This document shows, piece by piece, positions 13,958 through 63,864 of a stretch of 64,000 nucleotides of DNA. The notes under the pieces are model-generated. The model saw nothing but the letters and a program-made list of their open reading frames with translations, was not told where the DNA came from and searched no databases. A program made the translations under genes and the position numbers. This DNA is from Phycisphaerae bacterium (GTDB lineage Bacteria > Planctomycetota > Phycisphaerae > UBA1845 > Fen-1342): NCBI GenBank assembly GCA_022072445.1, contig JAJVHV010000019.1, positions 62,001-126,000 on the forward strand, read 5' to 3'. Each line of letters starts with the position of its first letter. Position 1 is the stretch's first letter.

Positions 13958-16108
13958 ATGCGCTACATCCCCCACACACTGCGGATTCTCACGCTGGCCG
14001 CCGTCGCGACGGTCGCGCTGGCGGAGACCGACCTCGAAGTGACCTACATCGAGCGGACGCCGAAGTACTTCAGCTATCAGGACCACGTGCAGTATTACAT
14101 CAACCACACGTTCAACGACGACTACCTGCCCTACAGCATCGACATCGCCTATGGCCTGTGGGGGCAGAACCAGAACACCAAGCGCTGGCCCGACGCGGGC
14201 GAGACGGTGACGTTCACGGCGTACGTGCTGAACCGCGGGACGACGACGGTCAGTAGTTTTGCCTATACTTGGTACCTGGACGGTGCGTTCTGGGCCTCGG
14301 GCACGTACTCGACGTCGCTGGCGCCGGGGGCAGTGGCCGCGATTTCGCGCAATTGGGCGTGGGATTTCGCGCCGCACACGGTGAAGCTGGCCGTGACGCT
14401 GGCGTCCGACGGGCATCCGTCCAATAACGCGGTGGAGGATTTCACGCACGGGCTGTCGCTCTTCACGTTCATCGACAAGGGCTATGCGGCGGCCTTCAAG
14501 GCGAACACGGTGAATTATCCACAGGCGGACACCGACTCGCTGACCGAGTGGCTTCAGCGGCACCGGGCGCGCATGAACCAGATGTTCGCCGACGCGGGCA
14601 GCCCGCTGCGCTGGCGCTACGACCGGCTCGAGCTGCTGAACGACGGCGCGCCGACGCCGCCCTACGACCGCGCGAACTACGACGGCAACTTTCCGACGCG
14701 CTATTACGCCGGCGACGGCGACGCGCGGCTCAGCGGCTATTACGACGCGAGCGAGGACATCGACTTCGGCCTGCTGCACGAGATCGCGCACCAGCTCGGC
14801 ATCATCGACATCTATCGCATCAACGTGTCGCCCCAGCAGAACCTCGTCAACGGCGCGGGCTACAACAGCACGCCCTGCCTGATGAACGGCGTGAGCCACT
14901 TCATCAGCCCGCACACGGCTCTGGCGATGGGCGCGTGGCATGGAAAGCGGCGCGGCTATTTCGGGCAGTATCTGTTCGCGACGCCCGACAACATCCGCCT
15001 GCGCTTCCTGAGCAACAACGGTCAGCCGTTGAACGGCGCGGCGGTGCGCGTGTATCAGAAGATCGAGAGCAGCGGCGTCGGCGAGCGTATTCCGAACGCG
15101 GTGAAATTCAGCGGCACGACCGACGCGAGCGGCTATTACACACTGCCCAATGTGCCGGTCGACGATTCGCTCTTCTGGGCCGACACGGGCGACGTGCTGA
15201 AGCCCAACCCGTTCGGCTACCTCAGCAACCACGGCGAGAACGGCGTTTTCCTGATCAAGGTCGAGGCGAACGAGTTCGTCGATTACGTCTGGTTCGACAT
15301 CACCGAGGCCAACGTCGCCTACTGGAGCGGGCAGACCGGCACGGCGACGTTCGACCGCCAGACGGCGATCGGCGACGGCGTGCAGAACTTCCCGCCGCCC
15401 GACCTGGCCGAGAACAACGCCGCGAGCTGGGCGAAGTGGGCCCAGGACGGCGCGCTGACACTGAGCGACGACGCGGCGTTCAAGCAGTATGGCGACGCGT
15501 CGCTGCGGATCGACGCGACCGGCGGCTTCGACAATTACGTCCGCTATCCGGGCGACACGCTGGCGAAGTGGGATTTGTCCGCTGTGCAGCAGATTCGGCT
15601 GTGGGCGTACGCGGAGAATGAGAACTGGCCGGGCTTTCAGGAGCTGAGCCCATGGGTACGGCTGGGGCACTATCAGGACGGCTATTTCCAGTGGAAGCCG
15701 ACGAGCGACATTCTGAATAATTCAATCGGGCACTGGGTCGAGTTCGTCATCCCGATCGCGGGCAATGGCACGTGGCAAAAGACGACGAGCGGCGCGCCGT
15801 CGCTCTCCGAGATCAACTACTTCGAGCTGCACGCCGACACGTGGGGCGCGGGGTTCGTGCTGTGGCTTGACGGCGTGCGTTTCGAGCCGTCGCCGCGGCC
15901 CGATCCGGGCGACATGAACTGCGACGGCAGCGTGAACGGGTTTGACGTCGACGGATTTGTGCTGGCGCTGAGCGACGCGGCGGGTTACGCGACGGCGTAC
16001 CCGGATTGCGACATCACGCTGGCGGACTGCAATGCCGACGGCAGCGTCAACGGTTTCGACGTTGATCCGTTTGTCGGTCTGCTGGGCGGCGGGGCGCCGC
16101 GCCCCTGA
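13958..16108 (+). CDS. Secreted metzincin-like metalloprotease with C-terminal dockerin-like tag
   Basis: This 716-residue exported protein starts at ATG 13958, with GGAGG seven bases upstream. The signal peptide ends near ALA at residues 20-22. Residues of about 65-165 resemble a CARDB-type beta-sandwich ([16 protein letters not shown]). A zinc-binding sequence [11 protein letters not shown] spans residues 274-284 and fits HExxHxxGxxD, as in snapalysin-like metzincins. CLMNG some 30 residues later could be the Met-turn. A carboxypeptidase-regulatory-like region ([12 protein letters not shown]) and a CBM-like jelly-roll (about 480-645) follow. Residues 651-716 are the [17 protein letters not shown] tag pair. 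Catalysis is inferred from the motif only; the substrate is unknown. Confidence 0.78.
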
Positions 16109-60304: not shown

Positions 60305-61129
60305 TCAACGCGTCGCGCGACGGCCGAAAACGCGGCGATAATCAAACCCGTGCGGCCGGCTCGCGGGCCGGTTGCGCACGTAAACGACGCCATCGCAGAT
60401 CAGCCAGCGCGACAGAACCCGCCGGGAGACCACGCGGCGCGTCTCGCGCCAGCCCAGCATCGCGTGCAGAATCCGCGCCGGCATGTTGCTCGCGTACACG
60501 AATCCGGACAGCCGGCGATACCCCAGCTCGGCCATCCGCGCAAAACACCGCGCCACCAACTCGCGCGCCCGGCCGCCGCCGCGGAACGGCGGCGCGAGGT
60601 AGATCTCGAACACGTACGCGCCGTCCTGTCCCAGCTCGAACTGGTAGCGCTCCACGTGCGGATGCGTCACGCCGCCGCACGTCGCACCGCAATAAAACAG
60701 ATAACCGACCAGTTCCGCGTCCTGATAACCGAGATACCCGCCATAGCCGATGCGGACGTATTCACGGATGCGTTGCGCCGCGCCGTCGCCATGTCGGGCG
60801 CTGAACGCCAACAGCTCGTCGAGGTGATCGGACCGCAGCGGCACGACGTGAATCCGCTTTTCGCGGATCGCGTTCTCGGACTCGGTGATGACCTTTTCGA
60901 TCAGAATCTCTTCGGCGACCTGGTAGACGCGTTTTCGGACGATTGCCGCCACGCGGCGCAGGGCGCGCGAGACCAGACTGCCACGCGCGTGTCGTCGCCG
61001 CTGCTGCGCGGCGGCGGGGCATGGCGCGGGACCGGCGGGCGGGTCAGCGGCGGGTGCGTCGGCGATGCTCGATGGAATCTCGGTTGGCACGATAACTCTT
61101 GATTCGGCCGGATGCCGCGCGGGCTTCAA
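60305..61129 (-). CDS. GNAT-family N-acetyltransferase
   Basis: A 274-residue frame starts at TTG 61129; GTG 61090 is an alternative start, and no ATG is available near the beginning. The acetyl-CoA site is FRGGGRARELVARCFARMAE, with the Q/RxxGxG pattern, and the final strand region SGFVYASNMPARILHAMLGW is typical for GNATs. The N-terminal 75 residues are Pro/Ala/Arg-rich and probably flexible. Cys-rich GATCGGVTHPH is unusual. The substrate is unknown. It is divergent from the ligase fusion gene and separated from it by 228 bp, so shared regulation is possible but not shown. Confidence 0.75.
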   Translation of the reverse strand: MKPARHPAESRVIVPTEIPSSIADAPAADPPAGPAPCPAAAQQRRRHARGSLVSRALRRVAAIVRKRVYQVAEEILIEKVITESENAIREKRIHVVPLRSDHLDELLAFSARHGDGAAQRIREYVRIGYGGYLGYQDAELVGYLFYCGATCGGVTHPHVERYQFELGQDGAYVFEIYLAPPFRGGGRARELVARCFARMAELGYRRLSGFVYASNMPARILHAMLGWRETRRVVSRRVLSRWLICDGVVYVRNRPASRPHGFDYRRVFGRRATR

Positions 61130-61357
61130 CGAGCCGACGGCGTCCGATACTCGCCGGGAGCACGTTGGCCCGATAGACGCGGATTTGCCGCCATCGGCGA
61201 TAGAAAATGTCGGCCGGCTCCGTGCGGATGGTGAAAAGAGTTCGCACCATTAGACTTGCTGATTCGAGCGGGCCTACGATTCACGACAGGAGACGATGCC
61301 GCCGGGGGGCGCGTCGTAGGCCGGCGCGGTTCTCGCGTCGGCGGGGGAAGAAGCCCG

Positions 61358-63130
61358 ATGAAGAGGACGTCGTACATCACAGCGCCGCAGGCGGCAGCGA
61401 TTCTCGGCATCGAGCTGAGGACGATTTATCGCTACGTGCGCCGCGGCATCCTGCGAGGCGTGAAGCAGGGTCGCTGCTGGCAGTTCGCCAGCACCGACAT
61501 CGACGCGCTCGCGCGGCGCGAACGGGCGAACGGCGCGGCGGCGCGACCGGCGCTGCGTCTGGTAAGCGGGCCGCAACTGCTGACCGATATTCTCACGAAG
61601 GTGCATCACGTCGTGGGCGAGCGCGGCGGGGTGAGCTGCGGGCATGAGCGGCTCTCGTACGCACAGATCAACCGGCTGGCCGAACGCCTGGCGGGCGGGC
61701 TGCATCGCATGGGCGTGCGGGCCGGCGAGCGCGTCGTGGTCCTGCTGCCGAACTCGATCGATTTCATCGTCAGTTGCTTTGCGATCTGGAAAGTCCGCGG
61801 CATCGTCGTGGCCGACGGCAACAGCATCAAGCCTGGCACGCTGCGGCACATTCTGAACGAGTGCCAGCCGCGGGCCATCATCGCGGACGGCCCGATGGCG
61901 CGGCAGGTCGAGGCGCTGCGGGCCGAAGGCGACCTGTGGCGCGTGCTGGTGGGCTGTGCCGAACCGGCCGCGAATCCGCCGCACGCCTGGGAGTATCTCG
62001 ACCGCATTCTGTCGCTGGACATTGTGCCGCCGGATGAGGCGCTGGACGGCGCTTCGCCCGACGACGTGGTGTCGCTGACGTACACGAGCGGATCGACCGG
62101 CATGCCGAAGGGCGTCATGCACACGCACGCGAGCTGGATCGACGGCGCGGAGTTCACACGCGCGCACGCGGGCCTGCGTCCGCTCGACAAGATCGTGATC
62201 CCGCTGCCGCTCTATCACGCCTACGCCATGCGGCAGGTGCTGGCCTACATGCTGGCGGGCGCTAGCATCGTGCTGGCCGACGTCTACCAGGCGCTGAAGC
62301 TGCTGGACGACGAGAAGCCCACGGCGCTGCTGCTAGTGCCGACGGCGTGCAACATCCTGATTGACCATTTTTCGAACGTGCTGCGCGACGCCGACGGCAT
62401 GCTGCGCTACGTCGAAATCGGCTCGGCGGCGATGCCTGCCGAACGCCTGGAGCGCCTGCGCCAACTGCTGCCATCAACCGACGTCTACCTGCCCTACGGT
62501 CTGACCGAAGCGCGGGTCGGCTTTCTGAAGGCCGGACCCGACGGCCTGCTCAACACGCTGACCGAGGTCGCGCCAGGTCTGGAGCTGCGCGTGCTCGACC
62601 ACGATGGCCGCCCGGCGAAGCGCGGCGAGACGGGCGAGATCGTGCTGCGCGGCCGCGGGCTGATGCACGGTTATTGGAACTGGTCCGACGCCGACAACGC
62701 CGCGATGCGCCGCGACGGCTTCCGCACGGGCGACCTGGCGCGCGTCCAGCGCGACGGGCAGATTTCGCTGGTGGGCCGGATCGACGACGTGCTGAAGATC
62801 GGCGGTCGCAAGGTGATACCCAACGAGGTGGAGATGACATTGAACCGGCATCCGGCGGTGATCGAGTCCGCCGCGGTCGCCGTCGCCGACCCGAAAGGGA
62901 TACTCGAGCACGTCCTGCACGCCTTCGTCGCGTTGCGCGACGGGGCGTCGCCGAGCGAAGCGGAGCTGATGACCCACTGCCGTCAGTACCTGGAGAGCTA
63001 CAAGCTTCCAGCTCGGATTCACTTTCGCACGTCTTTGCCGAAGTCGCCGGTGGGGAAGATTTTGCGTCGTGCATTGGTCCTGGAATCGATGGTTGGTCAC
63101 TATGCCACTAACGGAGGGAGTGAAGAATGA
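61358..63130 (+). CDS. HTH DNA-binding domain fused to an acyl-CoA synthetase/adenylate-forming ligase
   Basis: This 590-residue protein starts at ATG 61358, with GGGGGA upstream. Residues 1-55 match an excisionase/MerR-like HTH (ITAPQAAAILGIELRTIYRY, then GVKQGRCWQFASTDIDA). The adenylation domain follows: YTSGSTGMPKG (242-252), YGLTEA, TGDLARVQRDG, VGRIDDVLKIGGRKV, and the C-terminal LPKSPVGKILR with Lys567. All core ANL motifs are present, so the ligase should be active. The family joins a carboxylate to AMP and then to CoA or an amine. The stop overlaps the MfnB start (ATGA). The HTH is unusual: it could regulate the operon in response to substrate, or may have been recruited for protein or RNA binding. 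Acid and acceptor are unknown. Confidence 0.85.
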   Translation: MKRTSYITAPQAAAILGIELRTIYRYVRRGILRGVKQGRCWQFASTDIDALARRERANGAAARPALRLVSGPQLLTDILTKVHHVVGERGGVSCGHERLSYAQINRLAERLAGGLHRMGVRAGERVVVLLPNSIDFIVSCFAIWKVRGIVVADGNSIKPGTLRHILNECQPRAIIADGPMARQVEALRAEGDLWRVLVGCAEPAANPPHAWEYLDRILSLDIVPPDEALDGASPDDVVSLTYTSGSTGMPKGVMHTHASWIDGAEFTRAHAGLRPLDKIVIPLPLYHAYAMRQVLAYMLAGASIVLADVYQALKLLDDEKPTALLLVPTACNILIDHFSNVLRDADGMLRYVEIGSAAMPAERLERLRQLLPSTDVYLPYGLTEARVGFLKAGPDGLLNTLTEVAPGLELRVLDHDGRPAKRGETGEIVLRGRGLMHGYWNWSDADNAAMRRDGFRTGDLARVQRDGQISLVGRIDDVLKIGGRKVIPNEVEMTLNRHPAVIESAAVAVADPKGILEHVLHAFVALRDGASPSEAELMTHCRQYLESYKLPARIHFRTSLPKSPVGKILRRALVLESMVGHYATNGGSEE

Positions 63131-63864
63131 AGTGCCTTATCAGCCCTATTTCGCTTGAGGAAGCGGCCGGGATTGTCAACTGCGGTGTCGACATCATTGA
63201 CGTCAAGAACGTCAAGGAGGGCTCGCTCGGCGCCCAGTTCCCATGGAACACGCGTGAAGTCGTTGAGTTGACGCGGAAGTACAACATCAAGACCAGCGCC
63301 ACGCTGGGCGATCTGCCGTTCAAGCCCGGCACCGCCGCCCTGGCCGCCTTCGGAGCGGCGAACACGGGCGTCACCTACATCAAGGCCGGCCTGCACGGTC
63401 TGAATACGTACGAGCAGGCTTGCGAGATGATGGACGCCGTCCGCAAGGCGGTTCGCATGGTCAGCGCGACGGCCGACGTCGTCGCGTCGGGCTATGCCGA
63501 TTGGCGTAAGTTCAATGGTCTGAGTGCGTGGGACCTGGTAAAGGCCGCCCGCGACACCAAGTGCGACGTCGTCATGGTCGACACGGCGATCAAGGACGGC
63601 AGCACGCTGTTCGACGTCATGTCGTTCAGCGAGATCCAGGACTTCTGCGACCAGGCCAAGGAGGCCAACCTCGTCGTCGCCCTGGCCGGCTCGATCAAGG
63701 CCGATCACGCCGAGATGCTCTTCAAGCTCGATCCGCATCTGATCGGCGTCCGCGGCGCGGTCTGCGAGGGCAAGGACCGCTCGACGAAGATCTCGCCGGA
63801 GAAGACGCGCTGGTTCTGCGATCTGATCCACACGGGCGCTGCCCAGTATCGCAAGGTGGCGTGA
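63127..63864 (+). CDS. mfnB: (5-formylfuran-3-yl)methyl phosphate synthase (MfnB, former DUF556)
   Basis: MfnB condenses two molecules of glyceraldehyde 3-phosphate into the furan ring precursor of methanofuran. This 245-residue protein shows the family signature VKNVKEGSLGAQFPW with Lys27. Further signatures are SATLGDLPFKPGTAALAAFG, IKAGLHG with Lys86, MVDTAIKDG (Asp152, Lys156), and LVALAGSIK and LIGVRGAVCEG. The positions match archaeal MfnB within one residue. The start overlaps the ligase-fusion stop, so the two are translationally coupled. The furan cofactor is used with tetrahydromethanopterin in C1 metabolism. In bacteria the product is methylofuran-like. No H4MPT pathway genes are in this window. 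Confidence 0.9.
   Translation: MKCLISPISLEEAAGIVNCGVDIIDVKNVKEGSLGAQFPWNTREVVELTRKYNIKTSATLGDLPFKPGTAALAAFGAANTGVTYIKAGLHGLNTYEQACEMMDAVRKAVRMVSATADVVASGYADWRKFNGLSAWDLVKAARDTKCDVVMVDTAIKDGSTLFDVMSFSEIQDFCDQAKEANLVVALAGSIKADHAEMLFKLDPHLIGVRGAVCEGKDRSTKISPEKTRWFCDLIHTGAAQYRKVA

Follow-up and report, generated by a model that had tools for sequence, protein, structure and literature searches.

A helix-turn-helix/ANL ligase fusion conserved beside MfnB and a proposed pathway to a carrier-bound furan acid

In the 64,000-nucleotide stretch of Phycisphaerae bacterium DNA that was analysed here (the window), the gene for an ANL-family ligase that begins with a helix-turn-helix (HTH) domain overlaps the start of a gene for an MfnB-type furan synthase. 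The same pair recurs in two related genomes, and all three genomes also encode a carrier protein (ACP), an ALDH, an SDR, and a UbiD-family decarboxylase. We propose that these genes specify a pathway that draws on central metabolism to make a furan carboxylic acid, which is then activated on the dedicated ACP, a reading to which we assign a probability of about 0.55, and whose reaction steps and product we infer throughout from sequence.

The ligase fusion and its coupling to MfnB

The ligase gene (P0001; 61358..63130, + strand) encodes a protein of 590 amino acids. Pfam places an HTH_17 domain (PF12728) at residues 6-55 (61373..61522, + strand; E 6.8e-12, 45.9 bits against a cut-off of 27), an N-terminal AMP-binding ligase domain (PF00501) at residues 94-440 (61637..62677, + strand; E 5.6e-74), and an AMP-binding C-terminal domain (PF13193) at residues 490-567 (62825..63058, + strand; E 9.4e-15). 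The protein contains the YTSGSTGMPKG and YGLTEA core motifs in the first of the two AMP-binding domains and the conserved lysine K567, in PKSPVGKILR, in the second, and is a member of the ANL superfamily by all of these features. The original prediction of an HTH fused to an ANL ligase was therefore borne out, in that HTH_17 is followed by a complete AMP-binding ligase.

The ligase was searched for among 120 relatives at E 1e-70. HTH-bearing ligases were found in three of these, namely the window's genome (G000), G001 (L040/L057), which represents another genus of the same family, and G454 (L056), which represents another family of the same order. G060 gave a fourth match, which begins at residue 74 and has no HTH. 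The three orthologues show pairwise identities of 51-53%, and their alignment shows no variation in K567 or in the ANL core motifs. Moreover, MfnB adjoins the fusion ligase in all three genomes, and no fusion lacking this neighbor was found. The fusion is thus conserved beside mfnB in three genera in total and is not the single-strain oddity that the original prediction had allowed for, and the same domain order and MfnB adjacency in G001 and G454 imply that it is not an artefact of a frameshift or of the start call. Further HTH-ligases were not found in the MfnB-bearing genomes of L058-L062 at E 1e-50 or across 392 planctomycete genomes at E 1e-80, where only 3 candidates were scored per genome. 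The literature searched contained nothing relevant on HTH_17/AMP-binding fusions or furoyl-ACP pathways.

The MfnB-type furan synthase (4-HFC-P synthase; P0002; 63127..63864, + strand; 245 amino acids) matches the 4HFCP_synth family (PF04476; E 3.7e-76) and, over almost its full length, the solved MJ1099 MfnB (4rc1/4u9p; E 2e-61). P0002 retains the position of Lys27 of MJ1099, which is that of the lysine with the Schiff-base role in MfnB (PMC6604932). Its best NCBIfam model, PRK02227.1-3, scores 284 bits against an equivalog cut-off of 304, which is not reached; we judge P0002 from its sequence to be a close MfnB relative just outside this equivalog. The ligase-MfnB junction reads GAAGAATGAAG, where the TGA stop and the ATG start overlap as ATGA, just as had been predicted. 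The same overlap is present in G001, and the likely MfnB start in G454 is an ATG ~20 nt past the ligase stop. The MfnBs of the three fusion-bearing loci are 68-71% identical.

Fold and possible roles of the HTH domain

The AlphaFold model of the full-length ligase, built with three sequences, had a pLDDT of 63, and the fold search was therefore run on the HTH alone. AlphaFold2 modelled this domain by itself as a winged HTH, with a helix-helix-hairpin-helix arrangement and a mean pLDDT of 88, so that the HTH does form a folded domain in structure prediction, as the original prediction required. In Foldseek searches, the model resembled the DNA-binding domains of RacA, BldC, Xis, and MerR-type proteins (probability 1.00, E 0.004 and weaker, which are usual values for a 60-residue domain), and the earlier label of "excisionase/MerR-like" was therefore right. 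A protein-binding relative, in the CbpM-CbpA complex, was also among the structural matches. The Pfam score above cut-off and the predicted winged-HTH fold together place the domain in the HTH_17/BldC-like group. Twenty-odd HTH positions are invariant among the three orthologues, including basic residues R25, R28, R33, and K36.

Judged from the model, DNA binding by the ligase HTH is likely. The winged HTH would bind DNA near its own promoter and would make the ligase a sensor of its own substrate or adenylate. Autoregulation of the operon by the HTH, which had been suggested from the original reading of the sequence, is plausible on the basis of the predicted fold, and regulation by the ligase of its own pathway in the manner of BirA, an argument by analogy, has in our estimate somewhat less than an even chance of being correct. 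A candidate control region is the intergenic region 5' of the ligase gene (61130..61357, no strand), which contains an imperfect 15-nt inverted repeat (61265-61279/61314-61328) that is found in the window only and is not kept at the other two loci. No 10-mers common to the three loci and no conserved palindromes were found in a comparison for a shared upstream operator, and no sigma-70-like promoter was found upstream. Since no operator motif is common to the loci, support for regulation goes no further than the HTH fold.

The lack of a conserved operator across the three loci would also fit a different role, in which the HTH does not regulate and instead docks another protein (the ACP or MfnB) or a complex. 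This role is compatible with the furan-acid pathway, and MerR-like folds also bind proteins, as illustrated by the match to CbpM with the CbpA J-domain. However, the closest structural matches are DNA-bound RacA and BldC, plus Xis, and the basic residues listed above are invariant in the three orthologues. We regard docking as the less favored role, with perhaps one chance in a handful or slightly better.

Partner genes and the proposed furan-acid pathway

In G001, the partner genes form one six-gene operon in the order HTH-ANL, MfnB, ACP, ALDH, SDR, and UbiD-family decarboxylase, which was joined across contigs C253 and C94 through an exact 127-base overlap, such that the SDR gene continues onto C94 and the UbiD gene is next. 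In G454, an ALDH gene begins on the ligase/MfnB contig, and ALDH-SDR-UbiD and ACP genes are on C207; the ALDH pieces at the two contig ends share 7 bases and stay in frame when joined there, from which adjacency of ligase-MfnB to ALDH-SDR-UbiD is likely. Both G001 and G454 come from metagenomes and are fragmented, and their operons span contig ends. In G000, ACP-ALDH-SDR-UbiD form a tight second operon on a contig other than that of the ligase (G000:C25, 47669-51695), where the SDR and UbiD genes overlap as GTGA and the ACP and ALDH are 56% and 67% identical, respectively, to their G001 orthologues. UbiD orthologues (E 1e-75) are present in 3 of the 120 relatives, and these are exactly the ligase-bearing set. 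The G000 loci are on different contigs, away from contig ends, which implies that in that genome ligase and UbiD do not occur together merely through physical linkage.

The carrier protein is free-standing and has a DSLGH serine motif. The ACP of G510, which adjoins an FkbH-like protein, was rejected as an orthologue. The ALDH and SDR are members of broad families, and their best models, which for the SDR is the NCBIfam model of pyridoxal 4-dehydrogenase, fall below curated cut-offs; the substrates of both are consequently guesses. The UbiD is a full UbiD family protein, and its best PDB matches (E 1.5e-57 and 5.2e-68, with only about 30% likeness) are 6h6x/6h6v, which we take to be HmfF, a furan-2,5-dicarboxylate decarboxylase. 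The arginine that makes the second substrate contact of HmfF (R304) is apparently not conserved in this UbiD, which implies that its substrate is probably not FDCA itself. By position, residue 296 of the 6h6x/6h6v chain corresponds to H313, which is invariant in the three UbiDs; alignments show no histidine there in AnInD or E. coli UbiD. The HmfF residue reported to be key for furan-type specificity is H297 (PMC7976604), and the mismatch of one residue was taken as a difference in numbering; 6H6V is among the structures used in a published comparison of HmfF (PMC8379154).

In the proposed pathway, MfnB would condense two glyceraldehyde-3-phosphates to 4-(hydroxymethyl)furfural phosphate, which is a 2,4-substituted furan. 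After loss of the phosphate, the SDR and ALDH would oxidize the alcohol and the aldehyde to give furan-2,4-dicarboxylate or a 4-substituted 2-furoate, and a prFMN-type UbiD would remove one carboxylate, with 3-furoate as the likeliest product. The HTH-ANL ligase would then adenylate the furan acid and load it onto the ACP for onward transfer. The six-gene set contains no phosphatase, although this route would need one. In Akkermansiaceae, an SDR-ALDH fusion protein is encoded directly after MfnB (L061:766-3018), which we read as an independent link, at the level of gene order, between MfnB and oxidation. Taken together, the UbiD/HmfF match, H313, the MfnB lysine, the ALDH and SDR, and the Akkermansiaceae fusion suggest formation of the MfnB product followed by oxidation, decarboxylation, and loading of the ACP.

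As an extension of this pathway, a nearby GNAT might take the furan acyl group off the ACP and attach it to a surface glycan. GNATs that are 33% identical (E 3e-35) flank UbiD in G001 and G454, and these loci also include glycosyltransferase and sugar genes that follow in G001 and a PfkB-cytidylyltransferase (HldE-like) gene in G454; in addition, the close MfnB of L058 sits within a 38-kb polysaccharide cluster. By contrast, there are no glycan genes next to either G000 locus, and the L058 genome is without the HTH-ligase at the threshold given above. The window does contain a gene for a divergent GNAT-family acetyltransferase (60305..61129, - strand; PF00583, E 2.8e-8), whose membership as a possible acyl-transfer partner is doubtful; its similarity to the UbiD-flanking GNATs is weak and generic, and it was rejected as their orthologue. 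On balance, glycan decoration is a doubtful end point for the pathway.

Rather than biosynthesis, the ALDH, UbiD, and an acyl-CoA ligase could degrade furan acids through furoyl-CoA, with MfnB incidental or acting on a breakdown product. Indeed, the ALDH, the UbiD closest to HmfF, and the ANL ligase parallel the oxidase/dehydrogenase, HmfF, and HmfD of HMF degradation (PMC6604932). Yet the furan-forming MfnB is kept beside the ligase in three of three genomes, a dedicated ACP is likewise retained, and the operons hold no furoyl-CoA dehydrogenase, all of which makes catabolism improbable compared to the biosynthetic pathway.

Methylofuran serves H4MPT-linked formaldehyde oxidation, and its bacterial genes are found within an archaeal-like cluster with fhc genes (PMC8141765). 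The expectation that H4MPT-type C1 genes would be present in the same genome failed, in that Mch, Ftr, and Fae were all not found in G000 in searches whose controls were positive in methanogens; likewise, neither Ftr nor Fae was found in G001. Ftr is present in 11, and Fae in 10, of the 18 MfnB-bearing genomes searched. A tree of 49 MfnBs places the three fusion-linked proteins and that of L058 in one clade with MfnBs of Desulfobulbaceae, Akkermansiaceae, and G412, apart (support 100/99) from 31 planctomycete MfnBs that form a block; this block takes in the C1-linked MfnBs, and those of its genomes that were checked encode Ftr and Fae. Thus, despite the homology of MfnB to the archaeal enzyme and the adjacency and translational coupling of the two genes, a methylofuran- or methanofuran-like route in which the ligase links an acid to the furan was rejected as very improbable, because of the missing C1 genes, the placement of this MfnB in another clade, and partners (ACP, ALDH, SDR, and UbiD) that are not the MfnC/MfnE/MfnF/ATP-grasp set of MYFR (PMC8141765). 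Another part of the original prediction is supported, in that the substrate activated by the ligase is probably a carboxylic acid that comes from the MfnB product.

Several other gene contexts were recorded in the course of this work. At L058:6697-8765 (G510:C296), the stop of a glycosyltransferase gene overlaps MfnB by ATGA, and the 38-kb cluster there holds several sulfotransferase-like genes. In L059 and L060 (Desulfobulbaceae) and in L061 and L062 (Akkermansiaceae), MfnBs of the same wider clade are near genes for an AA_kinase (MfnE-like), a UbiA prenyltransferase, and a polyprenyl synthase (L059 and L062), and in L059 also for a radical SAM protein and an MMPL-type exporter; this may be another MfnB context that is not linked to C1 metabolism. 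At L051:5433-7642 and L049:1999-4295, in planctomycetes of different families, a dihydrodipicolinate-synthase-like gene is followed directly by a divergent MfnB homologue. Finally, short-unit tandem repeats at L006:11698-12390 and 14269-14965 read as PTVKSALSRA-type peptides and are probably non-coding.

Significance and comparison with known systems

If the furan-acid pathway is correct, the role of MfnB would reach beyond C1 cofactors into another kind of pathway, and the six-gene operon, which is compact and directly testable, points to genes by which 2,4-substituted furans, for example furan-2,4-dicarboxylate, could be made. The dimethyl ester of this compound is known from Streptomyces, where its origin is unexplained (PMC3778384). 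The full proposal of a new pathway from glyceraldehyde-3-phosphate to a carrier-bound furan acid (e.g., 3-furoyl-ACP), with a repurposed MfnB and a BirA-like, self-sensing HTH-ANL ligase, is tentative, and we consider it unlikely to hold in every part. If the HTH does regulate, the ligase would parallel BirA within the ANL family, as a single enzyme that both uses a metabolite and reports it to the genes. We know of no earlier BirA-like self-sensing arrangement on the ANL fold.

The MfnB-type 4-HFC-P synthase is common to the present genes and to methanofuran/methylofuran biosynthesis (MfnA-F; Orf22/21/9, MyfA/MyfB). Here, however, an ANL ligase, ACP, ALDH, SDR, and UbiD replace the aminotransferase, kinase, MfnF, and ATP-grasp ligases, in a genome (G000) without the formaldehyde-oxidation genes. 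Degradation of HMF and furfural (hmfABCDE, hmfFGH) similarly combines oxidation of a furan alcohol and aldehyde, decarboxylation by a UbiD-family enzyme, and activation of furoic acid by an ANL ligase, whereas the pathway proposed here would start from a 2,4-substituted furan made by MfnB, not from 5-HMF of external origin, includes a carrier protein dedicated to it, lacks a furoyl-CoA dehydrogenase, and appears biosynthetic. Stand-alone adenylation and carrier pairs (DhbE/EntE, NRPS A domains) resemble the full-motif ANL ligase and free-standing carrier; in contrast to those pairs, this ligase has an HTH, its predicted substrate is a furan acid, and the operons contain no NRPS or siderophore genes. 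BirA, a group II biotin protein ligase, likewise combines an N-terminal DNA-binding domain with an adenylate-forming ligase, modifies a carrier protein, and regulates the genes of its own pathway; for the HTH-ANL ligase, regulation driven by the adenylate would be the corresponding step. The ANL and biotin protein ligase folds are unrelated, and the catalytic part of the present ligase is AMP-binding only by Pfam, without a biotin protein ligase catalytic domain, and is joined to a BldC/Xis-like HTH. The resemblance to BirA, drawn by analogy, is one of logic and not of family membership.
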